From assembly GCA_017460665.1 (NCBI GenBank), contig JAFUAO010000079.1, positions 1 through 64,000 of the forward strand: a DNA stretch of 64,000 nucleotides, written 5' to 3'. This document shows positions 30,015 through 46,666 of this stretch, piece by piece (positions within the stretch are counted from its first letter, which is position 1; the number at the start of each line of letters is the position of its first letter). Made by a program: the position numbers and the translations under genes. Origin of the DNA: Ruminococcus sp. Its GTDB lineage: Bacteria; Bacillota; Clostridia; Oscillospirales; Ruminococcaceae. The notes beneath the pieces were generated by a model that was not told the DNA's origin, ran no database searches, and saw only the letters and a program-made list of their open reading frames with translations.

Positions 30015-33000
30015 TCAGTTATTTTCACGCTTCTTCTTGATGATCAGGAAGATAGCTCCGCCTGCCGCCAGCAGTGTTCCGCCGATCGAGCCAAAGAACA
30101 GCAGCTTGTTATTGTAATAACGGACCAGAAGATCACGTGTGACATAAAATCCGGTTATTTCAACATCGTTCATGTTCCCGGCTGCATCGGTACAAACTAT
30201 CTTTGCTGCATGGGACCGGTTCGACTCATCTGTAAGCTCGAAGGTGAACTCTGAATTCTCAGAAAGGATCCTTTCGACTTCAGCGCTGTTCCAGCTCTTA
30301 TAGACCTGATCGCTTCCGTCTAAGTAGACCTCGATATGATCCAGCTTCAGATTATCATCTGCTGTAAACGTTACTGTTTTCTTCTCCTGAGCGTAGGTCT
30401 CGCCGTTTTCAAGATCGACAACTACGATCGTCGGGAGAGTATCGTCTACTCCGAAGCTGATGTCACTGTTCTTTGTATCAAGGGTATTTTCAGCTATATT
30501 ATCCGCCGCATCCTTAGAGTGTACGGTTATCCTGTATACTCCGTTATCCTTGAATACTGAGCTGTTTATGTCATATGTGTACCTGTACCACTCACCGTTC
30601 CCGCCTGTTGATGTGATCTTGTAATCCTCGTTCTCCTTGAGCACGATCGCAGCGTTGTTCTTGAACACCGTGATCTTGATCTCAGCAAGAGAATTCGGAT
30701 TGATCTCCGAGAACTTAACGTTCTGCGGCTTCGTTATGTACTTTCCGAGTATGCTCTGAACAGCGCTCAGATCATAGGTCGAGCCGTATCTGTTCACTGA
30801 GAACGATAGGCTCTTTGCAGTTGTACGGCCGGCCTTATCAGTAACTGAGGTGCTCATAGTATAGATATCGTCCAGATCCTTTCCGTTCTCAGATCTTGGG
30901 AAATCCTCCATCGTAAGGATCCTTCCTATGAACGTGCCGCCGTCTGAATACTGATCTTCAAAGCGTCCGTTCCATGTTACGGTCTCTCCAGACTTTGCCT
31001 TGATCTTGAATGAGATCGTATTACCGGTCGCCTTTACATCAGTTACCTCGGTATTAGAGCCGGAAAGCATTATCTCAACATCATTGGGAGAATAGTTTAT
31101 ATCGCTGTAGGAAACTACAGGTACGACCTCGCCGGAATACGCTCCGCTCTTTGCCGAGCCGTTGACCTCGAGCTTCAGCGAGGGATCTGCCGTGTCTATA
31201 GTGAATGAGCCGGCTGAGGCTGAGTTGCTGTAGCTGACAGCACTGTTCCTGTTTCCTGCAAGATCGGAAGCCGTTACACTGAAGGTATAATCACCGTCAG
31301 CAGAAAATCCAGCCTTTGCTGTATATGTTCCGTTGCCGCCTTCCCACTTAGTTACCTCAGGGGCCTTGACGGGCTGACCGTCAAGCATACCCGTAATGGA
31401 GACCTTTGCGCTGTTTGCATTGAAATTCGTATCTCTGACTGTTATAGTTGCTGTACGCTGCTTCTGGAAATACGAATCATTGTATACATCGTTATTATCA
31501 AAGGATACGCTTATCGAAGGAGCGCTTGCATCAACAGTGAACGTGGATACAGATCTTTCCGTACCGCTGTTGCCAGCCATATCTGTTACGGATATCGACA
31601 TCGAATAAACGCCGTCACCGTTTATCGGAAGCGAGGCGATATGCGTAGCGTCATCGCCGTTGCCGGACCCGCTGGTGGAAGCCCATTCAAGTCCTGCTCT
31701 TGAGCTCACACCGTTGCGGGTAACGTACAGCTCAACATCTCCGGGATCGAAATTCCTTTCGGTGATCACGATAACTGCTGTTCTGCCACGATAATATCCA
31801 TCACTTGCATCGGAAGCCTTATTATCATCAAAGGATATATCCACAGTGGGAGCGGTCTTGTCTATTTGCAGGGAGATATACTCCATAGAGGTATTACCGG
31901 CATTATCATAGGCAGTGACCTCAAGGATGACATCGTTGCTGTTATTCAGATCACTGCTGATAACGACCTCGCCCTCCCATGTTTTGAGAAGCTCTGACTG
32001 AGACGGACTGCTGTTGGAAAATTCATAGACATTATCGCTTTGAGTTTCATTGCCCATGTTGAGCACACGGTAACTGATGCTCCTCAGGCCGGAATATGTC
32101 CCTCCGACTAATGGGTCGTCCACAAGGATGCGGACTGTCACATCACTATTGTAGATACCGCTCGCTGCCTGCTGAGGAGTCAGAGTGATCTCAGGCGCAA
32201 AGAGCTCCTCACGAGGCTCGATGTTATCTGCGATCATGCCATTGGTACTGATGTATGAGGTGTTCCCAGCCATATCTGCGATCTTAAGATAGACCACTGT
32301 TTGCGTATTCGGAAGGATCTCAACATTTGAGAAGGAAGAAGTTGAGCTCAGCGCACCGCCGTTCACAGTGTTCCTCCAGTCAGTCACAGAGGCGAGTTCT
32401 CTTTCTGTCAGCGCATCTACCGACGAACTCATGTGATACGACAGCTCTGCTATGGGAGAGGTCTTATCTGTTCCCTCTCCGGATATACTGAAGCCGCTGT
32501 TCGACCAAAAGCCAAAGTCGATACTTGACAGGAGCCTGCTCCACTCCTCAGAGCGTCCCTCATAAGAGGCTGAACGTACTGTTCCTATCGGCGCTGAGGT
32601 GTCCACAGTAAATCTTTCAGGTGCAACAGAACCGTTATAGTTCACGGCAGTATTTTTGTTGTCTGCTTCATCAGTATATTCGATTTTAAATGTATAGTTC
32701 GCATCAGACTGATAGCTGATAGTCATGACATGGATCTGCTCATCAGGGAGCGCACCCTCCGGGGAACGGTCCTCCCATTCACCTACGGTGTGACCGCTGA
32801 CTTCATTTCCCTGAGCATCGACTGCTGTTATAGTAATGCCATCAGTTGCTTTCCTGCTGTTGAAATGGCTGCTTCTTTCCTTGATAGAGATCTCAGCCGT
32901 TCTCGGCTTATTGAAATAGCCGTTTCCGTTGTTGTCGCTGTTGTTATCATAGACTACGCTTATGGAGGGCGGAGTAATATCGATATCAAGATCTACATAC

Positions 33001-36000
33001 TCTGTCGAGGTATTTCCGGCCCTATCGGCTGCGGTCAGAGTGACCCTAACATTGCTGCTGTTATGCTCCTCTGCCTTAACAAGAACGTTCACAGTGTGTG
33101 TCCTTATTATGTCATCAAAGCTGTCATTTCCGTCCTCTGCGAGCACTATTATCTCCGGATCAGTCTCGACACCGTCACTTTCGATCTTGTACTCGATCCT
33201 TGCGAGCCCGGCCGATACCGCATCGTTCTCATTATCGATCACATCGAACCTGACCGTGACATCAGAGTTATAGATACCTATGTTCTGGCCGTCCCCCAAT
33301 GACCTGACAGCGATCGGCTTATCAGGAGAAGGAACGATCACGGGAGGAACGATATCTATTATGTGACCGTCAGAGCAAATATAGCAATAGTTCCCTGCAC
33401 GGTCAGTGATCCTAGCATAGACAACATATTCCTTAGGATCAGAAAGCGTGATCTCTCCGGAATACCTCGCCCACTTGTCCTCACTGAGCCGATCAAGATC
33501 ATCACTGCCCAACTGAGCAGGGTCGCTGGTGATAAAGCAGCTTATATCGCAGGCATTGCTTTCAGACTTGCTGATATTATCATCACAGGCTATCGACACT
33601 TTGTATCTATCCTGCTCGTTTGTGAACCATCTGAACAGCACGTTCCCAAGATCCTGCCATGTATTGGAGTCGATAGAGATCGTTCCGGTCGGAGCTGTAT
33701 GGTCGACCACAAATTCAAGGATCTGATCATTTGTAGTCAGGGTGCCGTCGCCGACACCGTTCCCGAAGTTGTTGGTATAGCTATAGGCAGTATCGACCTT
33801 ATAGAAGCCCTCCTTGTTGAAATCGATCTGAGCCGTGTAGGTCTTTTTGCCGTCAGCGATCTGCTCCTCCCAAGGAGAGATCGTTATGTAGTCAGGATCC
33901 TCAGCGAACTCATGATCGCCCTCGATGCTCGGCTTATACCCTATCCTGAGCGCCTTCGCCGCTGCATCGCCGTCAAACTCCACATTCTTGCGGTCATCCA
34001 TCGAAATAGTGATAGTAGCCTGTCTGCTGGTATAATGATCGTTGTTTACGGACTTATCATCACTGAATTCCAGGATCCCGCCCATCTTCAGCTTGTTTAT
34101 GCTGAATGTCTCGCTTTCGACAACAGTCTCATTTCCGGCGTTATCCTTGACATGGACCCTGATGAACATATTATCCGACCGTGTCGTAGTGCCGAGATCT
34201 TCAACTGTGAATATGTAATGATCCTGGTACTGATCCTGGGTATCAGTCGTCTCCCTTTCGCCGGGGAAGGTCTCGATCCGGTCCGTTGTCCACTTGCCGT
34301 TTTTATAATAAGCTCCGCTCGCATCGACACTTCCGTAGACCGATGTATTCAGCAGATCTCCTCTTCCTAATAATACAGTATCATCTTTTTTGCTGTTCCT
34401 GAATAACACTTCATAGTATATCAGGCTCAGACCGGAATAAAAGCCGTTGTCGTCCTTGTCATCGCTCACCTTTAGAGCAAACGATACATTAGAATTAAAG
34501 AAATTTCCTTTTTCAGGCTTATCAAGCATCACAAGACTTACGGGTGAGGGAGCTTTATCCTCCGTGATGATACCGCAGGTACTGAGGTAAATGTGCTCAC
34601 CGGCTTTATTGAGAAGTCTTGCATAAACTACGACTGTTTCATTTACATCTACCTTGATGCTGTTGTCAGCCGACTCGACAAAATATGTTTCATCCTTTGA
34701 CTCATATTTTTCGTCAAGTTCCTTGTAAGTAAGCATTTTCGCATCTTCTTCTGACGTTATGACATCCTTATAGAACATGATGCTCTGAACATTGAAGCCC
34801 TGGCTCGGTACAGCATAAACTGTGATCGATGAATCGCCGAACAGCCCAAAGGTGAGCGTACTGAGTATCTCGCTCCAATTTTTGTCCTTGCACACCAGCT
34901 CAGAGCGGTCATTGTTGTCTATGAGCAGTATGGTAAAGCTATACTTATAGTCATTCTGGCTCTGACCTTCGCCGGGCAGCTTAGCTGCGCTTATACCGGC
35001 ACTGTTGACATAATCCATAGACCACTCATAAGTGCCGGATAGCGAGAAGGTAACGATCGCCTTTAAGATACCGTTTTCCTCATCGCTCTCCCAGGTCACC
35101 ATCTTTTCAACATCTTCAGCGCTGAGTTCGTTGCCTCCGTATTTTATCGTGAAGGCACTGGGATCTTTATTGAAGGTGTAGGGGCTGTCGCTGATGGAGA
35201 TGATCGCCTGTCTCTCGGAACTGTAGTAACCCTCTACCGCCTCAGGGAGCCTTTCACCTGTCACCTCCACTGAAGTGATCACAGGTGCATTGGTATTGAC
35301 GATAAAGTTCGTAGATGCCTCAGAAGGCTGGTCAGCGGTATCAGTTATCCTGACCATGAGAGTCACCAGCGCCGGATCATGAGAACTGCAATCAACAGTG
35401 AACTTGTGCTTAGCCAGCTCGTCCCTGTCACTGATCGTGACCGATCCGATCTCCGGATCATCCCCAATGATCCAGTATTTCAGCTCCTTGACTGAAAGCT
35501 GGTCAGGGAGCTCTATATCCCATGTTACTGAGATGTTATTTTTGCCGAAAGCATTATTCCCATCGACATAAGGCTCTGCTGCCAAGGTGATACTATGGCT
35601 TCCATTGAGCGTAACAGTGATCGGGTCATTCGTAAGATCAACAGTATGGACCACATTCTTTTCATACTCTGATTCGTCGAATATGACCTCTATATAGCCT
35701 ATCTGAGTCCCGCTGCTGATAGCTGCCGTTCCGTCCCCTGTACCTGCACTAAGCAAGCCGCCGGCTGTATTCAGGATATTTACAGTACACTCATCAGAGG
35801 GATAGGAGAAGACCAGTGATGAATTCCCCTTGATGAAATAATCGTTCCCTGTTTGAGAAATGATACCTTCGCCCGTAATAGAGATATCCTCAAAGGTAAT
35901 GTCTGTGATCGGCTCAAACTCAGCACTTATCTCAATATCCTCTCGGATCTTGCTTATGCTGAAAGCTCCGCTGCTGTAATTCCCTATCGTATAGCCCTCA

Positions 36001-36920
36001 TACTCTACACGTTCATCAGGAGAAACTGCAAGACCGTTCACCCAGATCTGGCTTATATAATGACCATCATCAGGGGTCACTGAGACTTTTGCGTCCTTAT
36101 CATGATCAACGGTGGTCTCACTTAGCTCGATAAGACCGTTGGAAGTCTCTGACACATTGAGCTCATATGTCTTGACGGCAAACGTGATGCTTATGCTATG
36201 GTCTGTATCCTTGGAGATATCGCTGATGGTGACCATGCCGTCATCTGATGTATCACTGCTGTCCAAAGCGAGCTCCTCATCATCGATGACTACGCTCTTT
36301 ACATAACAGCCTTCATAAGGCTTGGCATTAAGGACCAGCTCCTCTTCACAGGATATGCTGATCTCACCTTGGACAGTTTCGTTAGGATCGTCGCTCTTGT
36401 ACACAGTGCCTTTTTCAGGATCGTAGGTAACTGTCACGTTATAAACAGTTGTAAAAACGATGCTGATCGTTCCCTCATCCTCATGGGTATCAGGGATAGT
36501 GTACTCACAGGTATAAAAGCCGTTCTTCTGTTCTGTAAGCTCGATCGGCTCTCCGTCTATTTCAAAGGACTCGATGATCGTATGATCAGAATTCGGCCTT
36601 GCATACACAGTAAACGTGCTCCCTGGGGCTCCGCTGTATTCAGTTTTCGAATCGTTCCTTGAATTTATCGAGATCTTTCCGTCACCTGAAGACTGGACCT
36701 TGTATGTAACGTCCTCGACCTTGTCCTCGGTCACACCGCCCGCCGGCTCGTCACTGATCTCATCGTCCGTTGGCTGATCCTCATTCTTTTGAGCCGCTTC
36801 ATCCGTGATCATCGGAGCATCCAGTTCCTCCGCCACCGCAAGAAACGGCACACAGCTCATTGACACGAATGCAGCCAGTAGGACTGCGATCATACGGTCA
36901 AATATCCTTTTTGCTTTCAT
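30015..36920 (-). CDS. Giant surface protein with many Ig-like repeats and a C-terminal membrane anchor
   Basis: About 2301 residues. The ATG at 36920 is 8 bases after AAAGGAG; two earlier in-frame ATGs overlap the ribosome site. A signal peptide (about 1-32) and an acidic region (to about 70) are followed by beta-rich modules, first of the YKVQSSGDGKISI / VTVTYDPEKGTV type. At least a dozen Ig-like repeats then recur with D-x-TAP or D-x-TPP joints, DNN and ITDRAGN / VTDMAGN / AYDNAGN ends. A helix plus basic tail (FGSIGGTLLAAGGAIFLIIKKK) anchors it. No sortase motif or enzyme motif is seen. It is the last gene of the kinase/Tad-like operon and is probably its surface output, perhaps an adhesin. 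Confidence 0.88.
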   Translation of the reverse strand: MKAKRIFDRMIAVLLAAFVSMSCVPFLAVAEELDAPMITDEAAQKNEDQPTDDEISDEPAGGVTEDKVEDVTYKVQSSGDGKISINSRNDSKTEYSGAPGSTFTVYARPNSDHTIIESFEIDGEPIELTEQKNGFYTCEYTIPDTHEDEGTISIVFTTVYNVTVTYDPEKGTVYKSDDPNETVQGEISISCEEELVLNAKPYEGCYVKSVVIDDEELALDSSDTSDDGMVTISDISKDTDHSISITFAVKTYELNVSETSNGLIELSETTVDHDKDAKVSVTPDDGHYISQIWVNGLAVSPDERVEYEGYTIGNYSSGAFSISKIREDIEISAEFEPITDITFEDISITGEGIISQTGNDYFIKGNSSLVFSYPSDECTVNILNTAGGLLSAGTGDGTAAISSGTQIGYIEVIFDESEYEKNVVHTVDLTNDPITVTLNGSHSITLAAEPYVDGNNAFGKNNISVTWDIELPDQLSVKELKYWIIGDDPEIGSVTISDRDELAKHKFTVDCSSHDPALVTLMVRITDTADQPSEASTNFIVNTNAPVITSVEVTGERLPEAVEGYYSSERQAIISISDSPYTFNKDPSAFTIKYGGNELSAEDVEKMVTWESDEENGILKAIVTFSLSGTYEWSMDYVNSAGISAAKLPGEGQSQNDYKYSFTILLIDNNDRSELVCKDKNWSEILSTLTFGLFGDSSITVYAVPSQGFNVQSIMFYKDVITSEEDAKMLTYKELDEKYESKDETYFVESADNSIKVDVNETVVVYARLLNKAGEHIYLSTCGIITEDKAPSPVSLVMLDKPEKGNFFNSNVSFALKVSDDKDDNGFYSGLSLIYYEVLFRNSKKDDTVLLGRGDLLNTSVYGSVDASGAYYKNGKWTTDRIETFPGERETTDTQDQYQDHYIFTVEDLGTTTRSDNMFIRVHVKDNAGNETVVESETFSINKLKMGGILEFSDDKSVNNDHYTSRQATITISMDDRKNVEFDGDAAAKALRIGYKPSIEGDHEFAEDPDYITISPWEEQIADGKKTYTAQIDFNKEGFYKVDTAYSYTNNFGNGVGDGTLTTNDQILEFVVDHTAPTGTISIDSNTWQDLGNVLFRWFTNEQDRYKVSIACDDNISKSESNACDISCFITSDPAQLGSDDLDRLSEDKWARYSGEITLSDPKEYVVYARITDRAGNYCYICSDGHIIDIVPPVIVPSPDKPIAVRSLGDGQNIGIYNSDVTVRFDVIDNENDAVSAGLARIEYKIESDGVETDPEIIVLAEDGNDSFDDIIRTHTVNVLVKAEEHNSSNVRVTLTAADRAGNTSTEYVDLDIDITPPSISVVYDNNSDNNGNGYFNKPRTAEISIKERSSHFNSRKATDGITITAVDAQGNEVSGHTVGEWEDRSPEGALPDEQIHVMTISYQSDANYTFKIEYTDEADNKNTAVNYNGSVAPERFTVDTSAPIGTVRSASYEGRSEEWSRLLSSIDFGFWSNSGFSISGEGTDKTSPIAELSYHMSSSVDALTERELASVTDWRNTVNGGALSSTSSFSNVEILPNTQTVVYLKIADMAGNTSYISTNGMIADNIEPREELFAPEITLTPQQAASGIYNSDVTVRILVDDPLVGGTYSGLRSISYRVLNMGNETQSDNVYEFSNSSPSQSELLKTWEGEVVISSDLNNSNDVILEVTAYDNAGNTSMEYISLQIDKTAPTVDISFDDNKASDASDGYYRGRTAVIVITERNFDPGDVELYVTRNGVSSRAGLEWASTSGSGNGDDATHIASLPINGDGVYSMSISVTDMAGNSGTERSVSTFTVDASAPSISVSFDNNDVYNDSYFQKQRTATITVRDTNFNANSAKVSITGMLDGQPVKAPEVTKWEGGNGTYTAKAGFSADGDYTFSVTASDLAGNRNSAVSYSNSASAGSFTIDTADPSLKLEVNGSAKSGAYSGEVVPVVSYSDINYSPNDVEIMLSGSNTEVTDVKATGNTISFKIKAKSGETVTWNGRFEDQYSDGGTFIGRILTMEDFPRSENGKDLDDIYTMSTSVTDKAGRTTAKSLSFSVNRYGSTYDLSAVQSILGKYITKPQNVKFSEINPNSLAEIKITVFKNNAAIVLKENEDYKITSTGGNGEWYRYTYDINSSVFKDNGVYRITVHSKDAADNIAENTLDTKNSDISFGVDDTLPTIVVVDLENGETYAQEKKTVTFTADDNLKLDHIEVYLDGSDQVYKSWNSAEVERILSENSEFTFELTDESNRSHAAKIVCTDAAGNMNDVEITGFYVTRDLLVRYYNNKLLFFGSIGGTLLAAGGAIFLIIKKKRENN

Positions 36921-37386
36921 TCCCATCTCTCCTTTTCCCATATTTATTTATAAAACGGAAATTCCTTCCGTTAAAAAAGCAATGCAGCTGGACTGTCAGG
37001 AGCAATAACGCAACAGATGTGATAACTATCAGAGCAGAGTTCGTACCGCTCAGATATGCCGCAAGCACCGATGCCCCGGATATGATCATCATCACATCAC
37101 AGACTATCGCACATCTGTTTTGAAAAAAAGCAAATGCTCCCACTGCTCCTTGATCAGCCGGAAGTGACCTTTTCTGGAGCCAGCGTCTGCGTTTCTTGTC
37201 TGCATACCAAAAGAAGATCTGTGAAAGGATCAGGCAGCCCCAGAAAACTGCACCGATCAAATTTGACGATCTTCGTTTTTCCTGAAGGTCGATGATCCTC
37301 CCGATCCCCATGATCGGGAGCAGGTCAAGTGCTCCCAATACCGCTAGGGATACTGATATCCAAAATGCCCTTTTGATCCTTTTCAT
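36898..37386 (-). CDS. Small polytopic membrane protein, function unknown
   Basis: 162 residues with four hydrophobic helices (about 7-28, 40-60, 90-110, 115-140) and basic loops. Its ATG overlaps the previous stop (ATGA), and its end overlaps the start of the giant surface protein gene by 23 bases. The dense coupling argues for a role in making, exporting or stabilising that protein. I recognise no family. Confidence 0.75.
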   Translation of the reverse strand: MKRIKRAFWISVSLAVLGALDLLPIMGIGRIIDLQEKRRSSNLIGAVFWGCLILSQIFFWYADKKRRRWLQKRSLPADQGAVGAFAFFQNRCAIVCDVMMIISGASVLAAYLSGTNSALIVITSVALLLLTVQLHCFFNGRNFRFINKYGKRRDGNESKKDI

Positions 37387-37847
37387 TCGATTATCTCCAT
37401 ACTGCTGGTAAAGCCGAATTCTCTCACGACTGCAAATTTCTTGAACGGATCTGTTACAGGGAGCATCTCCTGAGAGCTCCTATGGCTCTCTGCGGCATAC
37501 CTTGCCTTTTCGGCTATCTTATCTTGCTTGTCAGCAAGCTCTGCTGTTTTGAGCTTATCGGTCTCTTTGGCGGCACCATGGATGCCCGATGTTTCCTTTA
37601 GGTCGCCAGAGTCAGTCATGATACTGCTCATCCTGCTCCTTCGCTTACCGGCCTTCAGAGCACCGGAATGGCTCTTGGAGGAGCTGAAGTCATAGCCTTT
37701 GATCTCCTGATCCGCCGCAATACCTGTCAATTCTTTGAACAGACGTGGGATCTTGAATACGATGAACAGCACGACCGACAGGATAAAAAGCACAGCAGAC
37801 GTTATAAAAAACACCCACGAAAGAGTATTCAATGCCCCTATACTCAT
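37383..37847 (-). CDS. Single-pass membrane protein with long charged cytoplasmic tail
   Basis: 154 residues: one N-terminal helix (about 8-33), then a hydrophilic Ser/Lys/Glu-rich tail. Start and stop overlap the neighbours by four bases on both sides. The Ser/Thr-rich tail next to a Ser/Thr kinase gene makes it a candidate phosphorylation target; that is inference. No known domain is visible. Confidence 0.75.
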   Translation of the reverse strand: MSIGALNTLSWVFFITSAVLFILSVVLFIVFKIPRLFKELTGIAADQEIKGYDFSSSKSHSGALKAGKRRSRMSSIMTDSGDLKETSGIHGAAKETDKLKTAELADKQDKIAEKARYAAESHRSSQEMLPVTDPFKKFAVVREFGFTSSMEIIE

Positions 37848-39550
37848 CCCTGTCCCTCCTTACCGGTACTGTATGCCATCTCGATCGCAGCCATAGTATC
37901 AGAAAGCTGAGACTGTGTCGAGGTCTTTTTCACTGTTCTGACATCATCTGTATCATCAGGCACGTCTATGCTGTCAAGAGCGTTCCCTACTCGATCATAA
38001 AGCTCTGTAAGCTCCTCCTTGGTGACACCGTCCACCTTGAACTTCGTTGGATACTGATGCAGGGCATTTCTTGCCAGCTCTATGAGCTCGAGCCTTACTA
38101 TCTCGCTCTCGTTCTCATTTTCGGCAACATTGTCCATGAGCTGTACCAAATTACGGTATAGCCTATTGTACATACCCTTATCGCTCGCCTCTGCGACCTT
38201 GACTGTGATGTCCCGATAGAACTCTCCAACGTAAGAATACACCTGAGCGATACCGAGCTCTTCGTATCCGGGATCTGCGTTCTCCTTGACGATCTCGAAC
38301 CATTTTACTGAGCTTTTTGCTCTTGTGATCTGATCCGGTGAATCGTAATGATACCAAAAGAGCTTTCCAAGCTCAAAGCAGATCTCTATATAGTTCTCCG
38401 GCTTTTTTTCAAGGTCACTGCGGTGATTTATCAGCAGCTTCTCTATTTCAGCAGCTTCATCAGCTGTAAATACGTCGTTGTCATAATAGCTTTTGTAAAG
38501 GCTGATCAGTCCGAGATAGGCCTCCTTTTCACCGCCCTTGTCAGGGATAGAGATGCTCTCGGCATATAGTTCCCGCTTTTCATTATAGTCAGATGACTGT
38601 TCAGCCTGCTCTATCATAAGCTGATAGTTGTCAGTAGCCTTTGCTATCGCCTTGTTCCTTGTAACTAAACCAGATATACCGCAGGCCAGCGCCAAAAGAG
38701 CTGCAGTTCCGAACAAAGCCACCTTTGTTATCGACTTCTTGGTATACTCATCGTCCAATACATCGATATGCTCAAGATCATACATCAGCTCCGCACATGA
38801 CTGATACCTGAGATCGGCTTCGTCCTGTGTACACTTGACTATGATCTTGTCAAGTCCTCTTGAAAATGAGGGATCCACCTTCCTGATCGACCTGTTGGCA
38901 ATGACAGTAGTTCTCGGATCTATATTCGTCAAAAGAGAGTACAGCGTCATCCCAAGAGCGTAAATATCTGTCCTCTCATCAGTGCGTCCTCTTCCGCCGT
39001 ATTGCTCCGGCGCAGCAAAGCCTGCGGTTCCCAGGCCTGTCGTAGACTCAAGAGCGATGTCATATTTTTTTGCTGTTCCAAAATCAATGATAGTGATATC
39101 TCCGTCAGGTCTCAGCATGATATTAGAGGGCTTCATATCACGGTAGATTATGGGAGGATCCTGAGCATGAAGATAACCCATCACATCGCATAGCTGCTTG
39201 GCCCATTCCTTGACATATTCCTCTGGCTGAGCCCCCTTCTCCTTCAGGATAACATCCATAGAACGGCCTTCGATATAATCCATGACTATGATAAAGCTGT
39301 CTTTATCCTCGATAACGTCAACAATGCTTGGCAGCTTAGGATGCTTAACGGATTTTAGCGTATCGATCTCGGTTATAAGGCTCTGTCGGACCATATTGTA
39401 ATCGTTTCGTCCGTCTCTTCTGACCTCCTTGATAGCCCAGGTCTTGTTAGCCTTTTCATTGATAGCGAGATACACAACGCTCATCCCGCCTCGCCCGATC
39501 TCACTGAGTATCCTATATTTATCGTCTACGAGATCACCTTGAGCAAGCAT
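37844..39550 (-). CDS. Hanks-type Ser/Thr protein kinase with membrane helix and TPR-like outer part
   Basis: 568 residues, ATG at 39550 after AGGAGG. The kinase domain (about 12-265) has IGRGGMSVVYLA, the ATP-binding Lys in WAIKEV, IYRDMKPSNIML (catalytic loop with Tyr for His), IDFGTAKKYD and GTAGFAAPEQYGG. One membrane helix follows at about 282-300. The rest (about 315-540) is helical and TPR-like instead of PASTA, so it does not sense muropeptides the PrkC way. It lies 12 bases after a PP2C gene, with an FHA gene before that: a full kinase-phosphatase-reader set in one operon. Confidence 0.93.
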   Translation of the reverse strand: MLAQGDLVDDKYRILSEIGRGGMSVVYLAINEKANKTWAIKEVRRDGRNDYNMVRQSLITEIDTLKSVKHPKLPSIVDVIEDKDSFIIVMDYIEGRSMDVILKEKGAQPEEYVKEWAKQLCDVMGYLHAQDPPIIYRDMKPSNIMLRPDGDITIIDFGTAKKYDIALESTTGLGTAGFAAPEQYGGRGRTDERTDIYALGMTLYSLLTNIDPRTTVIANRSIRKVDPSFSRGLDKIIVKCTQDEADLRYQSCAELMYDLEHIDVLDDEYTKKSITKVALFGTAALLALACGISGLVTRNKAIAKATDNYQLMIEQAEQSSDYNEKRELYAESISIPDKGGEKEAYLGLISLYKSYYDNDVFTADEAAEIEKLLINHRSDLEKKPENYIEICFELGKLFWYHYDSPDQITRAKSSVKWFEIVKENADPGYEELGIAQVYSYVGEFYRDITVKVAEASDKGMYNRLYRNLVQLMDNVAENENESEIVRLELIELARNALHQYPTKFKVDGVTKEELTELYDRVGNALDSIDVPDDTDDVRTVKKTSTQSQLSDTMAAIEMAYSTGKEGQG

Positions 39551-39562
39551 ATTATCCTCCTA

Positions 39563-40330
39563 TCAATAAGTTCTTATGGATATTACTGTGATATTGTCCT
39601 TTTCTTTCCTGCTTTTATTTAGCTCCACGAGCTCGTCCATATTATCCTTCATCTGGTTCTCATTCGTCATTACGTCCGGTCTGAGATACTGCATCATCTC
39701 TTCGTTGCTTATCTCATGCCTGAAGCCGTCGCTGCAAAGCATATACACCGTATCCTTGGTCAAAGTGCCAGTGAAATGATCCGGCATGACTACTCCGGAG
39801 ACTCCGATACACTGGAGCAGCACGCTCCTGCGTGGATCTGTTTTCGCCTGCTCCTCAGTGAGCTTTCCCAGCTCTACCTCCTGAGCGACCACCGTCTGAT
39901 CCTTAGTCAGCACCTTCACCTGATCGTGTATACTGTATACCCTTGAGTCGCCAACGTTCACTATGAACCATCTTGTCTCAGTGAGCATTATGGCCGTTAG
40001 CGTTGTGCCAAGGCTGATATTGTGGAGCTCGCCGTATTTTTTTATCTTATCATTGCACTTCTGTACCAACCGGCCCCATTCGGACTTGATGACCTGATCT
40101 GAAATACCGGTCTCACACAATATAGGGAGCCTATTGATCATCCACTTATTGAATGCATCAACGACGGTCGCACTTGCAATCTCACCGCTGGAATAACCGC
40201 CCATCCCATCGCACAGCACAGCAACAAGTATCGTGCCGAGCTTCGTATCAAGGATCTTTACTCCAAAGCTATCCTGATTTACGTCCTTGACAAGGCCGAC
40301 ATCAGTTGCTGCGGAAACAAGGTAATTCAT
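39563..40330 (-). CDS. PP2C-family Ser/Thr protein phosphatase
   Basis: 255 residues, ATG at 40330 after GGTGAG; the upstream frame extension lacks a ribosome site. Metal-binding motifs DVNQDSFG, LCDGMGG, GTTLTAIM, VGDSRVY and CSDGF are all present, so it should be active. It would reverse the partner kinase encoded 12 bases downstream. Cytoplasmic, no membrane segment. Confidence 0.93.
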   Translation of the reverse strand: MNYLVSAATDVGLVKDVNQDSFGVKILDTKLGTILVAVLCDGMGGYSSGEIASATVVDAFNKWMINRLPILCETGISDQVIKSEWGRLVQKCNDKIKKYGELHNISLGTTLTAIMLTETRWFIVNVGDSRVYSIHDQVKVLTKDQTVVAQEVELGKLTEEQAKTDPRRSVLLQCIGVSGVVMPDHFTGTLTKDTVYMLCSDGFRHEISNEEMMQYLRPDVMTNENQMKDNMDELVELNKSRKEKDNITVISIRTY

Positions 40331-40346
40331 CTGGCTCACCTTCCAT

Positions 40347-41762
40347 TCATGAAACGACTGACCTGAATTCAAATTCCTCGTCAGCAAACATGATACTGTC
40401 ACCGCTGAATATCTGCCTCTCCGTATCCGGCGAAAGCATCTCACCGTTGACATAGGTATGATTTCTTGACCTCATATCGATCAAATAGTACACGTCTTCA
40501 CGCTTGATCACACGAGCGTGTCTGCGGCCAACAGCAGTATTGTCAGTGATGCAGTAATCCACCTCGGACGCTTCTCGGCCTATCTGGAAAACAGGCTTAG
40601 TGATCTCGATATTCTTACGATCCTTCTTTCTGATAAGGTAGGCTCTTTCTGTCGGCGTCTTTTTTAGAACTGTCGTTTCCTCCGAACGCCCTGCCAGTGC
40701 AGTCGTCTCTGGGATCTCACTAGCGTTATCTTTGAGAGATGTTGTTTCGATATAGCTATCCTTCTGGACAGTATCCTTAGGATCTTCCTGACTGGAAACG
40801 CTCCTGTTGACCATCCCTCCGTTCAGCACTGTGGTCCCGCCGTATTCAAAATCCTTTTGCTCCGGCCTAACAGGAGCAGGTCTCTGCTCCTGCGGCAGAG
40901 GCGCCTCATGGGGCTCTGCTGCTCCGGGGAGCCCTTTTTTCAGCCCGGCAAGCCCTGCAGAATAGCCTCGGCCAGGCTTTTCCTTTGGCTTTTTTGTCTT
41001 TTCCTTCTTTTTTCCTCCTGAGAATAGCTTACCAAGAAGGCTCTTCTCCTCCTCTTCCTCCACCATGACTGGTATAACAGGAGGCGTATACGTTTTTTCA
41101 CCTGATACGGTTATCTCTGAAGGCTCCTCGACTCTCTTCCTGGCTTGCTCTTCCGGCTCAGGGGCGGACCTTTTATCGCTGTGCCTCTCCTGAGTTTTGC
41201 TCCCTGCCGATGCCATTTCCATGGCTGAGATCATATTCCTCAGAGAAAAACCGTTCTCGCTCTTAACAACATTATATACACCGTTGAAATAGCTCGTCTC
41301 ATTCACGTTCCAGTCAACATAGCTCGCATCGACTACGGCCTTAAAAAACTCATACAGCTTTCCTCCGCAGTGGTGATCGACTATGGGAACGCAGATAAAA
41401 GAGACTGAGTTATCGACCTCGTTTATGAAAACACTGTTTATGTCAAGGATCACCTGATCTGCACTTATCATGAACTCATCGAAATTCTCGATGGTCTCGA
41501 TAAGATTGATCAGCATCGCTTTGAATGCTTCCTGTGTGACTCTTTTACTGAGATACTCCCTGATCGTGATACGTCCTGTTACATCGAAGAGGATCTTTGT
41601 ATAGACCCCGTTCATCGCCTCGAACCTTATGGGGGCAAGCCCGACGTTCCTGCTTTGATTGCTGTTGATCATAAGCAGACTTACCTTGTCGATAGTGCTT
41701 ACAGGACTGTTCATATCCATTACAGCATATACATTGCTTCCTTTTTGAACTCTCGTCAACAT
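40347..41762 (-). CDS. FHA-domain phosphothreonine reader with N-terminal DUF6382-like domain
   Basis: 471 residues. The N-terminal domain (about 1-190; RFEAMNGVYTKILFDVTG, YLSKRVTQEAFKAML) is the DUF6382 type that recurs before FHA in Firmicutes. A charged linker (about 195-375) includes Lys-rich and Pro-rich parts and several TTVL / TTSL / TTAL Thr motifs that look like kinase targets. The C-terminal FHA domain (about 390-470) has FQIGREASEVDYCI, VGRRHARVI and RSRNHTYVNG, with the Arg and Ser/His positions that hold phosphothreonine. It would read marks set by the operon kinase and recruit partners. Confidence 0.9.
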   Translation of the reverse strand: MLTRVQKGSNVYAVMDMNSPVSTIDKVSLLMINSNQSRNVGLAPIRFEAMNGVYTKILFDVTGRITIREYLSKRVTQEAFKAMLINLIETIENFDEFMISADQVILDINSVFINEVDNSVSFICVPIVDHHCGGKLYEFFKAVVDASYVDWNVNETSYFNGVYNVVKSENGFSLRNMISAMEMASAGSKTQERHSDKRSAPEPEEQARKRVEEPSEITVSGEKTYTPPVIPVMVEEEEEKSLLGKLFSGGKKKEKTKKPKEKPGRGYSAGLAGLKKGLPGAAEPHEAPLPQEQRPAPVRPEQKDFEYGGTTVLNGGMVNRSVSSQEDPKDTVQKDSYIETTSLKDNASEIPETTALAGRSEETTVLKKTPTERAYLIRKKDRKNIEITKPVFQIGREASEVDYCITDNTAVGRRHARVIKREDVYYLIDMRSRNHTYVNGEMLSPDTERQIFSGDSIMFADEEFEFRSVVS

Positions 41763-41773
41763 AGTTTCATCAC

Positions 41774-43084
41774 CTAATCAAATAATTCTAATACGATAAA
41801 CTGCTTTATGCCGTCCATTTTGACAAGCGCATATCCGTTCTTGTAAAATGATCCCATCTCATCCATTTCAGGCTTGATCAATACATTTTCTTCCTGATCG
41901 ATACAACCCCATTTACCGTCTATCCTGACAGGAGCATATCCCAATGAGAAGGAGCCTGCATCGTCATATGAGGGCTGGATCACAAGCTCACCTGCCTTTG
42001 AAACGAAACCCCAACCGCTGCCGCTCTTTACTGCTGCCGGCTCTTCCGAAGCAAAAAGACGAACTTCATCATAGTCGTCTGACAGCTTTTTGCCACTCAG
42101 ATCATATAAGGCATACTTTCCGTTTTTCTTTGCCCAGAATACACCGTATACCGAGCAGGCGCCGCAGTCATCGATCAGTATCTCATCGAACTCAAGATCC
42201 GTCACATTCTTGAAGCTCTCGTTTATTACTGTCCATTTGCCGTTTTGCTTGACCGGAGCGATTCCATTGTAGAAGCACCCGGCATATTCATACTCGAAAT
42301 GCTTCTCGCCCATATCCTTATCCAAGTATCCGTACTTGCCGTCTATCAAAGCAGGAGCAAGCTCCGAGCTGAAAGGCCCTAAATAGTCTGCCTTGTGGTC
42401 AGGTACCCTTTTTCGGTGCAGATCCTTATCCATGTAGTAGTATTCACCATTCGAGCAAACAGGGATCAGGTCGTTCATCAGCGGTCCTATGTCCTCATAT
42501 TCACACTGATACACCAGCTTGTTATTAGTATTCAACAAGCCGAACTTTCCCTCGACTGATACTCTTGCATAGCCGGTATCACTTCCGGGAGCGTATATCC
42601 ATGACGTGAAATCGTCATATCTCAGCGACTCGGTGCCATATCTCCCAAGCAGCGCATAGAGGGTCTTTTCTACCTCCTCATCACTGCCTCCGGCGTCCTG
42701 AAAATCCTTCAAGATGTCATACGCTTTATCGAATTCCAGCTTATCCAAGTATTGCTCAGCGATCGCCAGATAAGGCTCAGGCTGTGAAGGATCGATCTTT
42801 ATCGCCTGCTCACATGACTTGATATAAGAGGCAGGCTCGTTGAGTTCCTTATAAAGCTGTGCTATGTGCATCGAAAGATCATGATCCGGAACGATGTCGT
42901 TTGCCGCCTCATATTCCTTAACAGCATCTATGTAGATGCCCTTTTCCTCATACTCCTCCGCCAGTTTGATATGCCTGTCATGGTCAGCATGGATATGGCC
43001 GTTATACTCAAGCACGCTTTTCCATGATAACACCAGCATCAGCAAAAATACGCCAAGTATAAGGACAGGTATGATCTTGTTCAT
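41774..43084 (-). CDS. Membrane-anchored TPR and WG-repeat protein
   Basis: 436 residues, ATG at 43084 after AAAGGAG. One N-terminal helix (about 3-20) anchors it; TPR-like helices cover about 35-135. The rest is a run of WG-type beta repeats (GKFGLLNTNNKLVY, GKYGYLDKDMGEK, GKWTVINESFKNV, GKYALYDLSGKKL, GWGFVSKAGELVI, GKWGCIDQEENVL). WG repeats form propeller-like binding surfaces of unknown target. Orientation suggests an extracytoplasmic scaffold in the Tad-like operon. Confidence 0.85.
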   Translation of the reverse strand: MNKIIPVLILGVFLLMLVLSWKSVLEYNGHIHADHDRHIKLAEEYEEKGIYIDAVKEYEAANDIVPDHDLSMHIAQLYKELNEPASYIKSCEQAIKIDPSQPEPYLAIAEQYLDKLEFDKAYDILKDFQDAGGSDEEVEKTLYALLGRYGTESLRYDDFTSWIYAPGSDTGYARVSVEGKFGLLNTNNKLVYQCEYEDIGPLMNDLIPVCSNGEYYYMDKDLHRKRVPDHKADYLGPFSSELAPALIDGKYGYLDKDMGEKHFEYEYAGCFYNGIAPVKQNGKWTVINESFKNVTDLEFDEILIDDCGACSVYGVFWAKKNGKYALYDLSGKKLSDDYDEVRLFASEEPAAVKSGSGWGFVSKAGELVIQPSYDDAGSFSLGYAPVRIDGKWGCIDQEENVLIKPEMDEMGSFYKNGYALVKMDGIKQFIVLELFD

Positions 43085-43097
43085 TTGATCTGCTCCT

Positions 43098-43766
43098 TTA
43101 TAAAAAGAAATAATACACACTTATCCCGCCGAGAACGAACGGCGCCATGGGCAGCGTCGATCTCAGCTTCGCCTTGCCAGAGACAAGAAGTATCACGCTG
43201 TACACAGCTGCTAAAAACAGCGAGTACATCAGCACCTGAAGGATCCCGCTCAAGCCAATGAAAAGACCTGTCACTGCATAAAGCTTCAGGTCGCCCATCC
43301 CGACTCCTCCCCGTGAGATCAGCATCCCGGTCAGGATCACAGCACCTCCGACAACTGCGCCGGTCAAAGAGAAGACGAGCATTTCAACGCCTCCCCTCCC
43401 GTTAATAAGAGCTTCGATCGCTATCCCAGCAAAGCGAATAGCTATCAGAACGATCAGCAGAAGATTCGGGATCTTCTTGACTAAATGATCGATCGAGGCT
43501 ATAATAAATACGATATCCCAGAGAAGCAGGAGCTGTATCATGTAGATGTATGTTACTGTCCCGCTCTTGAAACGGAGCAAGCAGCAGGCTGCTACGATAA
43601 AAGCGCACAATGTCAGAGGAAGGATCCTTTTTTGTCTGCTGAGTATTTGCATGATAGCTTGCTTTTCTCTTCCGAGATAGCTCCACCTATAGCAGATCAT
43701 CGACACTGCAAGGATCGCAGAAACCATAATAAAAGCTGCGTATTCACTTACTGCCCTCAACTTCAC
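43098..43766 (-). CDS. A24 prepilin peptidase (TadV/CpaA-like)
   Basis: 222 residues, polytopic, GTG start at 43766 after AAAGGACTG, overlapping the previous gene end by 23 bases. The two catalytic aspartates of the family are visible in ASIDHLVKKIPN and GVGMGDLKLY (GxGD motif). Such peptidases cut the leader of type IV or Tad prepilins at the inner membrane face. With a TadE-like gene just upstream, it supports a pilus or pseudopilus history for the operon. Confidence 0.88.
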   Translation of the reverse strand: MKLRAVSEYAAFIMVSAILAVSMICYRWSYLGREKQAIMQILSRQKRILPLTLCAFIVAACCLLRFKSGTVTYIYMIQLLLLWDIVFIIASIDHLVKKIPNLLLIVLIAIRFAGIAIEALINGRGGVEMLVFSLTGAVVGGAVILTGMLISRGGVGMGDLKLYAVTGLFIGLSGILQVLMYSLFLAAVYSVILLVSGKAKLRSTLPMAPFVLGGISVYYFFL

Positions 43767-44583
43767 CAGTCCTTTGCGGCAATTTGATCTTTGAGATCTC
43801 TAATGTAGTATCTCCGTCAGGCCTTATCCAAGCAGCCGTTACTGCGACCTGCCTGAAGGTCATTTTGTGCTTTATCATACCAAAGGTCAGTTTTTCAGTA
43901 TCCAGCTCATACTCCACCACGAGCTTTATCGATCTGCCGTCAAACAGGAGCTGTGAGTGCTGGAAGCTGACTGAATCAGGGTCAACGCCCATTTTTTCGT
44001 AAAACTCGTCCACATCTCCTGATGTCATGTACTTAGGCATGAGCGCCTGGCAGACCAGAGGAGCCGCCAGCGCTGAAAATCCTCGGTTTATCATGGTCCT
44101 GCCAAACACCTGTATGACTGCCTTTAGCTGATCTGCGGCATTATTATCCTTTGAAAGATCCTTGATATACTTAGATACCTGACTGATCTCTCCTTTGATC
44201 TTCTCAGTATCGACCTCATTCTTGAGGTCCTTGATCGTGTCCAGAGAAAGGCCGTCATCGAAATCGATATTTTTGGACACATCCTTTGCGCCATTAGAAA
44301 GCGAGACAAGATTCCCGACAGTTGTGTTAAAGCCCTCGAGCTTCTTATCGACTCCTGACGGATCCTTTCCGGAAAGTATATCCGTGATCCCGGCCTTATC
44401 CAGCAAATAGAAATATCCCGAGATCTCCTTAGCTGTCTGGTCAAGAGCATACTGCATACTTGCCTGCACTCTTATGATCAGCGACATGAACATTATCGCC
44501 AGGATCGACAGCATAAAAAACGTCAAGCCGATCACCGCATCTATCGCAAATGCTCCATGCTCGCTTTTTTTCATATGCTTCAC
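43744..44583 (-). CDS. TadE-like pseudopilin with large extracytoplasmic domain
   Basis: 279 residues. A GTG at 44583 is about 7 bases from GCAGGTG; an ATG at 44574 is the alternative. A short basic N-terminus with E-x-G (KKSEHGAF) and one hydrophobic helix (about 15-37) followed by a helical segment (ASMQYALDQTAKEISGYFYLL) is the TadE/TadG build. The rest is outside and lacks a known domain. It lies 19 bases after the TadZ chimera gene. Confidence 0.75.
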   Translation of the reverse strand: MKHMKKSEHGAFAIDAVIGLTFFMLSILAIMFMSLIIRVQASMQYALDQTAKEISGYFYLLDKAGITDILSGKDPSGVDKKLEGFNTTVGNLVSLSNGAKDVSKNIDFDDGLSLDTIKDLKNEVDTEKIKGEISQVSKYIKDLSKDNNAADQLKAVIQVFGRTMINRGFSALAAPLVCQALMPKYMTSGDVDEFYEKMGVDPDSVSFQHSQLLFDGRSIKLVVEYELDTEKLTFGMIKHKMTFRQVAVTAAWIRPDGDTTLEISKIKLPQRTGEVEGSK

Positions 44584-44602
44584 TCAATTCACCTGCTTTC
44601 GG

Positions 44603-46666
44603 TCAATATCCGTTCATACCGCTGTAATTGATCTTGACTGAGTTGGACCCGAGCGAAGACAGATCGAGCCCAATATCAGCTGTTCCTGCTGCATCGTCCA
44701 CATTGTCCTCAACTATCCATGGGAACAAGGTCGTCATTCTGATAGTTGCATTCACTGAAACGAGAGTATTCGCCTCGACCATCTGGAACGATGCATTGCT
44801 GCTGCCATGGCTATCGGGCGCTGCCGCAACATTCGCTTGGATGAGCACTGCTGCACGCTGGAGCATCTTCGTTTCATTGAACATCAGCTGCATCAGTACG
44901 AAGATCTTGCAGTATTCCTTATAATTGAGCGTAAAACCGCCGGATGATGCGGAAGTATCGAAGGACTGATCCATCTTAGATGAGAGCTTATCATCGATCA
45001 CATCAGTGACCTTGCCTGTGATCTTTTCAGCAGCTTCGTCTGTTTTTTCATGGATATAGCTCTTGATCTCAGAGGCGCTTTTATCAGTAGCATTCCTTAT
45101 ATCCGTCATGATCTCGTCCTTGATCTTACCAAGCTCTTTAGTTATATCTTCCCTGAACGAATGGATAGGCTCAGTAAGGATACCTTTTTCTCCGGCAAGG
45201 AGATCATTAAGGCTGGGAACGTTAGCCGTATCACCTGCAAGTATCTCATTGAAATAATCCATTAACTTTGTTTTTAGATCCTCCTTGAGCTCTTTAGCTT
45301 TTGTATTATAAAACTTAAGCGCAAGATCCTTGATCGTCCCATCTTCCATAGCATTGATATTTGCACCGATCGTATTGAACGCCTCTTCCAAGCCCTTCTC
45401 AACGATCTTATCGATATCGCCGTTCCCGCTGCTCACGAGAGTCATTATCGGTGTCAGCTTGTTGGTAAGCGGAGAGATGAATATGCTCTCTATAGATGTC
45501 TGTACAGCATCGACCTGATCTTCGATATAATCTGTCACATATCCCTCAAGATCACCTGCTGCATCGCTTATCGTCTTTTCTGCCTTAGAGTCAGTACGAT
45601 ACCTCGCCAAACGGGCGATGAGCTCCATATCTTTCAGGGAGCTCTGCTCATTCTCTGAGCCGTAATATTGATTTAATATCAAGTATTTCTCCGGCATTTT
45701 GTCCTCAGCTTCTCTTGAAATGATCTCAAAATATCTCTTTAGCTTGGACAGCTTCACATCTGCGATGTCAGATCCGGAGGACACCACCGTGACCTTATCA
45801 GACAGAAGTATGATCTTTTTCATATTATCATTGACTATGAAATCGGTATCGATTATGACCGACCCATAGTCGAATTTTTCCCTAAGGGCCTTGAAAAGAG
45901 TTTCGATCCCATTTGGAGCGAGAGATGTATACTCCATGATATTATTGAAACCCTTTATGTAGAAGACCTTGCTGCCGTGCTGTTTCGTGTCCTGACTTAT
46001 AGAATCACGGATCATCTGATAAAGGGCACTGTCGGAATACTTTGTTTTCAGCAATGCAGCGATCTCAGTTATCCCTTTTTTGTTATCACTTGAGAAAAAC
46101 GCCTGATCCGACGTTCTCTGCTCAAGGTTTATATATAATGTAGGGCTGGTGTTTGAAAGAGCTATCGCACAGGCAGCAGCCATAGTGGAGCTTCCTGCTC
46201 CTCCGTTTGCCGGGATAAAGGTAATGATCTCAGTTTTTTTCCTCTCATCCGGAGTATTCTCACTGCGCTTTATCGTTCTTTTTTTCTTCTTCTCATAAAG
46301 CTCACATATCTTTGAGTATATCTCTGATACCCCTCTGTACTTGAACAGAGTCTCCTTATCGTCTATGATCTCATTGGTCTCAGAGACATAAGCAAAGACT
46401 GCACTTCCGATTTTTGAACTGATCTCATCAAAGCTGATATCATCGAACGTCCCGTCGAACAATACAACATCGTATTTCTCCTTTTGCAGGGATGCCGACG
46501 CATCCTCATAGTTATCAAAAACCGTGATCTGAACATCCGGATGTTTCTTATTGAGATAGTATTTAAATCTCTGTGAATGATCCGTGTTCTTATAAACACT
46601 ATATCGATAGCGACCCTCCCATCTTCCATCTTTTCTTCTGTAAATGTTTTCTCCTTTTTTTGCCAT
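44603..46666 (-). CDS. Chimeric protein: integrase-like N-terminus, TadZ ATPase, DUF5702-like pilus protein C-terminus
   Basis: 687 residues, ATG at 46666 after AAGGAGAGCG. Residues 1-20 (MAKKGENIYRRKDGRWEGRY) read like the start of a tyrosine integrase. Residues 21-120 form a CpaE/TadZ receiver-like domain (HSQRFKYYLNKKHPDVQITV), then a ParA-like ATPase (about 146-345) with deviant Walker A NGGAGSST and IIDTDF. After the TadZ block KYLILNQYYGS and RLARYRTDSK (about 355) the character changes: a long amphipathic helical region leads to a C-terminus (about 575-655; NYKEYCKIFVLMQLM, RAAVLIQANV, TLFPW) typical of DUF5702 surface proteins of Tad loci. TadA, TadB, TadC and pilin genes that normally lie between are missing, so a deletion fusion is likely. 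Confidence 0.7.
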   Translation of the reverse strand: MAKKGENIYRRKDGRWEGRYRYSVYKNTDHSQRFKYYLNKKHPDVQITVFDNYEDASASLQKEKYDVVLFDGTFDDISFDEISSKIGSAVFAYVSETNEIIDDKETLFKYRGVSEIYSKICELYEKKKKRTIKRSENTPDERKKTEIITFIPANGGAGSSTMAAACAIALSNTSPTLYINLEQRTSDQAFFSSDNKKGITEIAALLKTKYSDSALYQMIRDSISQDTKQHGSKVFYIKGFNNIMEYTSLAPNGIETLFKALREKFDYGSVIIDTDFIVNDNMKKIILLSDKVTVVSSGSDIADVKLSKLKRYFEIISREAEDKMPEKYLILNQYYGSENEQSSLKDMELIARLARYRTDSKAEKTISDAAGDLEGYVTDYIEDQVDAVQTSIESIFISPLTNKLTPIMTLVSSGNGDIDKIVEKGLEEAFNTIGANINAMEDGTIKDLALKFYNTKAKELKEDLKTKLMDYFNEILAGDTANVPSLNDLLAGEKGILTEPIHSFREDITKELGKIKDEIMTDIRNATDKSASEIKSYIHEKTDEAAEKITGKVTDVIDDKLSSKMDQSFDTSASSGGFTLNYKEYCKIFVLMQLMFNETKMLQRAAVLIQANVAAAPDSHGSSNASFQMVEANTLVSVNATIRMTTLFPWIVEDNVDDAAGTADIGLDLSSLGSNSVKINYSGMNGY

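Follow-up and report, generated by a model that had tools for sequence, protein, structure and literature searches.

The closest described counterpart of the genes considered here is the T7SSe, a form of the type VII secretion system (T7SS) described in 2024, which contains the DUF6382-FHA protein TseJ, the PPM phosphatase TseF, the kinase TseD, the proteins TseH and TseK with a single transmembrane segment (TM) and a short unstructured cytosolic part, and the giant protein TseI (PMC11217815; this and the other articles cited by accession are represented here by selected passages). TseI, the counterpart of TsdI, is large and has a signal peptide, Ig-like domains and a C-terminal TM, and for TsdI an envelope-spanning or conduit role has been proposed (PMC11217815). 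T7SSd and T7SSe belong to Bacillota/Actinomycetota, Tad loci adjoin T7SSg and T7SSh, and T7SSf contains the TadZ-like protein TsfV; the passages on these systems do not report a T7SSe-type module inside a Tad operon (PMC11217815). Such an arrangement is analyzed here in a stretch of 64,000 nucleotides from a Ruminococcus sp. (contig JAFUAO010000079.1, positions 1 to 64,000; hereafter the window), in which ten open reading frames (ORFs) on the minus strand combine a kinase, a phosphatase, an FHA protein and a giant Ig-like protein (the phospho/Ig module) with parts of a Tad (Flp) pilus.

Like the T7SSe, the operon encodes a DUF6382 plus FHA protein, a PPM phosphatase and a membrane kinase, as recognized by Pfam and, for the kinase TM, by hydropathy. 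The single-TM protein and the giant Ig protein, with its hydrophobic N-terminus and C-terminal TM, resemble their T7SSe counterparts by architecture only; the likeness refers to published descriptions and not to reference sequences. Unlike the T7SSe, the module sits in a Tad operon, and no match to TseC, the FtsK-type ATPase, was found in the window genome at E<=1e-40. PF01580 matched an 857-aa FtsK-like frame of that genome and, with 27 bits, a 543-aa frame. Pfam detected neither WXG100 proteins nor a ubiquitin-like TseB among the ten genes, to which this search was confined. Because parts of this kind are listed as T7SSe components in the passages of PMC11217815, the suggestion of a preliminary description that the system could be one not yet described is not supported for the phospho/Ig set.

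With the Tad pilus the operon shares TadZ, prepilin peptidase, TadE-like and DUF5702/TadG-like parts, whereas motor, platform and pilin are absent from the window operon, and kinase, PP2C, FHA and Ig genes are added. FHA domains are also tied to the machine in Kil, the Tad-like killing apparatus of Myxococcus, for which a signalling role has been suggested (PMC8460266), and class III CpaF carries an FHA domain (PMC12019362). In contrast to the operon, the passages on Kil and class III CpaF assign FHA domains to the ATPase and to functionally uncharacterized proteins, and the word "kinase" is absent from the main text of the Kil paper (PMC8460266). A kinase and an FHA reader at an envelope machine also make up the threonine-phosphorylation switch of the type VI secretion system (T6SS), which is cited in the passages of PMC11217815 and PMC8460266. 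However, no T6SS part was found among the operon genes, and the FHA domain alone matches TagH, far under the cut-off. In OdhI/GarA, ETTS is the kinase site beside the FHA domain (PMC8546545). The FHA protein of the operon likewise combines an ETT-type threonine site with a neighbouring FHA domain, and the FHA regions match in sequence, but OdhI/GarA is a metabolic regulator and has no envelope machine. A Tad locus is shown in PMC13011404, the passages of which contain nothing on the phospho/Ig module. A search of one open-access library, mostly by listing, retrieved no description of the phospho/Ig module in a Tad operon; in the same library no paper on DUF5702 and, besides PMC11217815, none on DUF6382 or T7SSe was found.

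We consider it likely that the ten genes are the remains of a 16-gene operon that encoded a Tad pilus followed downstream by a regulatory and envelope module of the T7SSe type with a phospho-switch, and that an internal stretch is missing. This reading is based on an intact relative. One contig scan (84,980 species by the tool's description) with the kinase as query gave two loci, L120 in Ruminococcus sp. UBA3280 (the same contig as G072:C87) and L121 in an uncultured Clostridia bacterium (CANQCL010000015.1; genome G141), the latter of which was extended as L133. On CANQCL010000015.1 16 genes are located on one strand with gaps of up to 134 bases, in the order tadZ, tadA, tadB, tadC, flp, tadE, DUF5702, TadE-like, prepilin peptidase, WG, FHA, PP2C, kinase, two small membrane proteins and giant Ig protein. 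Pfam confirmed TadZ, TadA, Flp, TadE and DUF5702 in G141; TadA is present in G141, G072 and G042, and both TadB and TadC in G141. Between the DUF5702 tail and the Ig gene the window has the same order as L121, and therefore the co-location of these genes is not due to chance. The identities are 59% for the PP2C, 54% for the kinase, 33% for the Ig protein and 24-32% for the others. The proposal that kinase/PP2C/FHA genes, Tad genes and the giant Ig protein form one operon is thus borne out by an independent genome. Relative to L121, the window contig lacks the end of tadZ, tadA, tadB, tadC, flp, tadE and most of the DUF5702 gene. As the relative has tadA, tadB, tadC and flp in place and the first ORF of the window is scarred, the "missing motor" is better explained as lost sequence, by deletion or by an assembly error, than as a motorless display system of an undescribed kind. 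A wholly new motorless system, as it had been read from the window, was therefore rejected.

The scar is the first ORF of 687 aa. It had been counted as one of ten genes but is, judged from sequence comparison, a chimera of an integrase-like start, a TadZ without its C-terminal end and a TadG-like DUF5702 tail (Table 1). Among the integrase starts that resemble its first codons, L006 was the only one tested by Pfam (Phage_integrase, E=2.5e-31); the first 30 aa of the ORF alone gave no meaningful Pfam match. The TadZ part matches PDB entry 3fkq (E=6e-19) over chain residues 30-337 of 373, whereas the intact TadZ of G141 covers residues 20-371, from which it follows that the end is missing in the window; against the G141 protein itself it aligns to residues 9-331 of 354. 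The match of the tail to PF18960 is under the curated cut-off (E=0.0021), compared to model positions 88-274 and E=2.3e-25 for the full G141 protein. Intact DUF5702 proteins start with a hydrophobic segment (by eye), and this segment and the conserved middle are absent in the window. In G042, G072 and G141 TadZ and DUF5702 are encoded by separate genes of the Tad loci.

Table 1. Coordinates of the operon features in the window, in the order of transcription (aa, amino acids; TM, transmembrane segment).
Feature	Position	Strand	Evidence and remarks
Start of the 687-aa ORF (21 codons), resembling that of tyrosine integrases	46604..46666	-	Over 21-23 positions 76-86% identical to the starts of six ORFs from other genomes of the genus
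TadZ without its C-terminal end; receiver and MinD-like ATPase	45596..46603	-	PF21194 E=3e-6; residues ~22-357 of the ORF
Tail of a DUF5702 (TadG-like) protein, after ~200 aa whose origin is doubtful	44603..45595	-	PF18960 model 207-274 of 276
TadE/F-like minor pilin	43744..44583	-	28% identity, E=3e-18 to the same-place gene in L121; PF07811 E=0.032, below cut-off
Prepilin peptidase (Peptidase_A24)	43098..43766	-	PF01478 E=7e-9; 32% to L121
WG-repeat protein, N-terminal TM (13-31)	41774..43120	-	PF14903 E=8e-47; TPR matches under cut-off; 26% to L121
DUF6382 + FHA protein, TseJ-like	40347..41762	-	PF19909 E=2e-13, PF00498 E=1e-14; linker TTVL, ETTSL, ETTAL, ETTVL
PP2C/PPM phosphatase, TseF-like	39563..40453	-	PF13672; 59% to L121
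Membrane Ser/Thr kinase with a part C-terminal of the TM, TseD-like	37844..39550	-	PF00069 E=3e-47; one TM 277-295
Single-TM protein (154 aa), TseH/TseK-like, tail ends FTSSMEIIE	37383..37847	-	TM 12-30; 28% to L121; tail alike in L036, L121
Small four-TM protein (162 aa)	36898..37386	-	Hydropathy scan; 29% to L121; relatives in L045, L079
Giant Ig-like envelope protein, TseI-like	30015..36941	-	PF12245/PF19077; one TM near each end; 33% over 2300 aligned positions to L121
Terminator-like stem-loop	29955..29994	-	18 pairs, directly 3' of the last gene

Several observations speak against the reading as a damaged 16-gene operon. The complete arrangement was found in one examined genome only (L121), the Tad locus of G072 is devoid of the Ig gene, its operon stopping at the single-TM gene, and in G042 another kinase is located at the Tad locus. 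In addition, the ~200 aa ahead of the DUF5702 tail align well with nothing.

The scar could have two causes, a true deletion or an assembly chimera, and it is solely with the former that the latter competes. According to the assembly explanation the organism has the whole Tad operon, and the contig misjoins tadZ with DUF5702 and an integrase start with tadZ, or merges strains; we regard this as a serious possibility, albeit not the favoured one. It is favoured by the fragmented state of the source assembly, which has 104 contigs, is 92.9% complete and is probably metagenome-derived (the window lies within contig C61 of genome G000). Three unrelated gene pieces in one stop-free ORF also point to a misjoin, as does the lack of any TM in the 687-aa ORF (hydropathy scan), which would leave the DUF5702 tail on the wrong side of the membrane. 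However, the window contains no N letters, and no second copy of the junction DNA was detected, the only matches being of <=39 bases. An integrase body that clearly continues the fragment was not found among the 17 matches in the window's own genome, which are the window fragment itself (73% over 26 aa) and 16 others at 25-43%, although two of them, C40:549 and C85:109, are near contig starts.

Neither TadA nor the platform proteins were found elsewhere in the assembly, which again argues against a mere misjoin. No TadA was detected in the window's own genome at E<=1e-30. PF00437 gave strong matches only in two adjacent frames on contig C79, which we take to be type IV pilus ATPases, and three further matches of 18-25 bits. 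The examined part of C79 (8000-27999, L047) contains adjacent T2SSE frames of 563 and 378 aa and a T2SSF frame of 412 aa, and these genes most likely make up a type IV pilus locus of their own. Neither TadB nor TadC was found in the operon, and genome-wide PF00482 matched only one C79 frame, but this model is a weak detector of TadB and TadC: the TadB of G042 scores 23 bits, below the cut-off. No Flp was recognized in the operon, the part of the genome to which the search for it was limited.

An alternative, which seems rather doubtful for the window itself, is that the Tad part has decayed in this species and that the intact downstream genes form a motor-free, phospho-controlled surface display system. 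The genes from the prepilin peptidase to the Ig gene are indeed all open frames with recognized domains, and the distribution of the module in the genus also lends some support. The C-terminal half of the kinase was used as query (E<=0.001) against 125 genomes of the genus, including the window's own, and was matched in 35 of them. A TseC-like ATPase was present in 32 of the 125 genomes at E<=1e-40, in 22 of these with at least 400 bits, and TadA in three, one of which has a fragment. The context of the 35 kinase matches was derived from contig positions, with TseC counted at >=400 bits and wider neighbourhoods fetched for most of them. TseC lies on the same contig within ~11 kb in ten genomes and on another contig in five, two are linked to Tad (the window and G072), and 18 have neither TseC nor TadA; 14 of these 18 genomes have a completeness of 90% or more and a contamination of no more than 5%. 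However, in five of the 18 genomes an FtsK-type protein is matched more weakly, with 146-149 bits, so that a motor acting in trans is possible, and the scar in the window may be an artefact. In the two genomes that were examined, G064 and G060, the weak match lies ~40 kb from the module and belongs to a separate cluster, which contains FtsK, kinase and WXG100-like genes. The module "alone" is thus to be understood as alone in its neighbourhood.

This other cluster (L148:3731-13858 in G064:C3 and L149:2877-13076 in G060:C40) encodes WXG100-like proteins and an FtsK-type ATPase that is divided between two ORFs (1083 and ~580 aa), and there is further a 623-aa ORF, matched by Pkinase in L148, besides a small protein with a giant one after it. 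Pfam was applied to L148 only, where the WXG100-like matches are just under the cut-off. The cluster is possibly a further T7SS subtype.

It is very unlikely that the 687-aa fusion is real and functional, namely a TadZ that has gained a new tail and positions the envelope parts still present. Both junctions are in frame (a chance of ~1 in 9 if random), the 687 codons contain no stop and TadZ is nearly whole. However, a comparison with 40 relatives matched the protein solely through its integrase-like start, in five genomes, TadZ and DUF5702 are separate in all three Tad loci mentioned above, and the DUF5702 part has lost its N-terminal hydrophobic segment and conserved middle. That the module serves a T7SS encoded elsewhere in the window genome is the least probable explanation, since a TseC-type T7SS was rejected there for want of a TseC-like match at E<=1e-40, even though parts of the same kinds are employed by the T7SSe and TseC lies close to the module in some relatives.

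Most of the layout that had been reported was confirmed. The ten ORFs (30015..46666) are spaced, in the order of transcription, by +19, -23, -23, +11, -107, +12, -4, -4 and -44 bases, in accordance with the reported ten same-strand genes, which overlap or are no more than 19 bases apart, and with one strong terminator-like stem; the overlap of 107 bases would shrink with an internal Met as the PP2C start. The G+C content of the operon is 0.40-0.48 by segment, compared to 0.53 for the whole window, and the operon could be acquired DNA. Rfam gave no matches in the window at gathering thresholds. The domains found by Pfam are Peptidase_A24, WG repeats, DUF6382 plus FHA, PP2C, Pkinase and Ig-like, by which the set of kinase, PP2C and FHA protein is confirmed. 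The pilus parts are secured for the prepilin peptidase; the TadE-like assignment is weak by itself and relies on the position of the gene and its identity to the L121 gene. The WG-repeat gene, the two small membrane proteins and the giant protein are present with their predicted TMs (all TMs are from a hydropathy scan). The giant protein has a hydrophobic N-terminus and, at its other end, a TM helix with a basic tail, and no LPXTG motif was seen by eye, for which reasons "membrane-anchored" fits it better than the former term "wall protein".

The kinase is 54-57% identical to its counterparts in L121 and G072, and its C-terminal part has no sequence relatives in PDB. PADLOC matches were taken to reflect the shared kinase fold, and a reading of the kinase as part of a defence system was rejected. 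Single-TM proteins of the Tad-linked loci (window, L036 and L121) share an FTSSxEIIE-like C-terminal tail, and in L037 such a stretch is present near the end of the PP2C instead. The slot between the single-TM and Ig genes is filled by the four-TM type in the window and L121, and by a protein of ~310-330 aa in L041 (15643-16581) and many other loci; the L041 protein has a low-complexity stalk and hydrophobic ends.

The module was also compared among relatives. An Ig-type giant gene follows the kinase and one or two small genes in 25 of the 31 loci compared besides the window; these are loci and not 31 genomes, two are without a kinase and several are cut by the end of the stretch examined. WXG100 genes are present near TseC-linked modules in those relatives in which they were looked for. 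In L110 two WXG100 genes come after the ATPase gene that follows the module, and this ATPase has both FHA and FtsK domains. In G042 the TseC-linked module and the Tad locus are separate, and the latter has FHA and PP2C genes of its own. This Tad locus (L037:14668-17520, G042:C30) ends in a different kinase of 950 aa.

The preliminary description had suggested a survey of co-occurrence in other genomes. The full set was encountered once, in that the window and L121 share it including the Ig gene while the G072 operon ends earlier, but for the genus the association mostly fails: outside the window genome, G072 and G042, the remaining 32 of the 35 kinase-positive genomes are without a TadA match, and in G042 the kinase match is apart from the Tad genes. 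A version of the display idea survives in other species, where the module has neither TseC nor Tad nearby. The kinases of the window, G072 and L121 form one clade with a support of 100/100, and thus the link of the kinase module to Tad may have arisen once. The tree contains 31 kinases of 520-600 aa, the 950-aa kinase of L037 and a 386-aa piece of L091 having been left out; its group labels were set by the authors, and L038 is labelled T7 although its TseC is on another contig.

For the intact operon the following switch is proposed as the most probable mode of action. The membrane kinase would sense an envelope signal via its outer domain and phosphorylate threonines of the ETTVL/TVVV type in the FHA protein and, in most relatives, in the tail of the single-TM protein. 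The FHA domain would bind these phosphothreonines and thereby switch the assembly or activity of the adjoining machine, in analogy to OdhI/GarA and the T6SS, and the PP2C, by its family, would reset the switch. The Ig protein might span or decorate the wall as a docking tower, an adhesin or a conduit.

Threonine motifs such as ETTVL and TVVV recur in the FHA proteins and in most single-TM tails. A strict motif, T-[TVIAMSLF]-[VIL]-[VIL], and a wider pattern were defined, both after the sequences had been viewed. For the counts, 45 residues were trimmed from the start and 22 from the end of the single-TM tails, and the FHA proteins were taken from residue 151 onwards, FHA domain included. The strict motif is present in 28 of 32 single-TM tails (mean 2.3, maximum 6 in 500 shuffles) and in 28/33 FHA proteins (mean 9.2, maximum 20 in 500 shuffles), whereas its serine version is not enriched (2/32 and 11/33, respectively). 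As controls, the PP2C proteins are within the range of the shuffles (18 versus a mean of 12.7, maximum 23) and the Ig proteins are not enriched (51 versus 77). The window FHA protein has two strict and four wider motifs (ETTSL, ETTAL, ETTVL and one more TTVL). A profile of the FHA proteins of the window and L121 matches FHA chains including that of the small protein OdhI/GarA.

Some features do not fit the proposed switch well. Four of the 32 single-TM tails, including that of the window, are without the strict motif, and those of the window, L045 and L079 are motif-free even by the wider pattern. The kinases are enriched as well (33 versus a mean of 13.3, maximum 22, in 100 shuffles), and, the patterns being post hoc and the sequences related, the shuffles overstate independence. 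In addition, the window FHA domain has by eye a Gly at the position that in most relatives is the Ser of S-x-x-H, which we take to be a known FHA site, and because of this replacement its phosphothreonine binding could be weaker.

A wider reading is offered tentatively. The module would be portable, occurring with the T7SS ATPase, in a Tad operon or alone; the window species would have lost the Tad motor but kept the module as a motor-free, kinase-controlled display, with ETTVL-type threonines as the common plug for the FHA domain. In Ruminococcus-like bacteria the present findings connect two unrelated envelope machines, the Tad pilus and type VII secretion, through a common kind of phospho-switch and a common family of giant surface proteins, and the threonine motifs offer a concrete candidate phosphosite for how this switch may be read. 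The findings also call for caution, as the "motorless operon" of the window genome would be a damaged or misassembled Tad locus. More generally, it appears that a portable phospho/Ig module, common to Tad pili, type VII secretion systems and neighbourhoods with neither, may serve different envelope machines.

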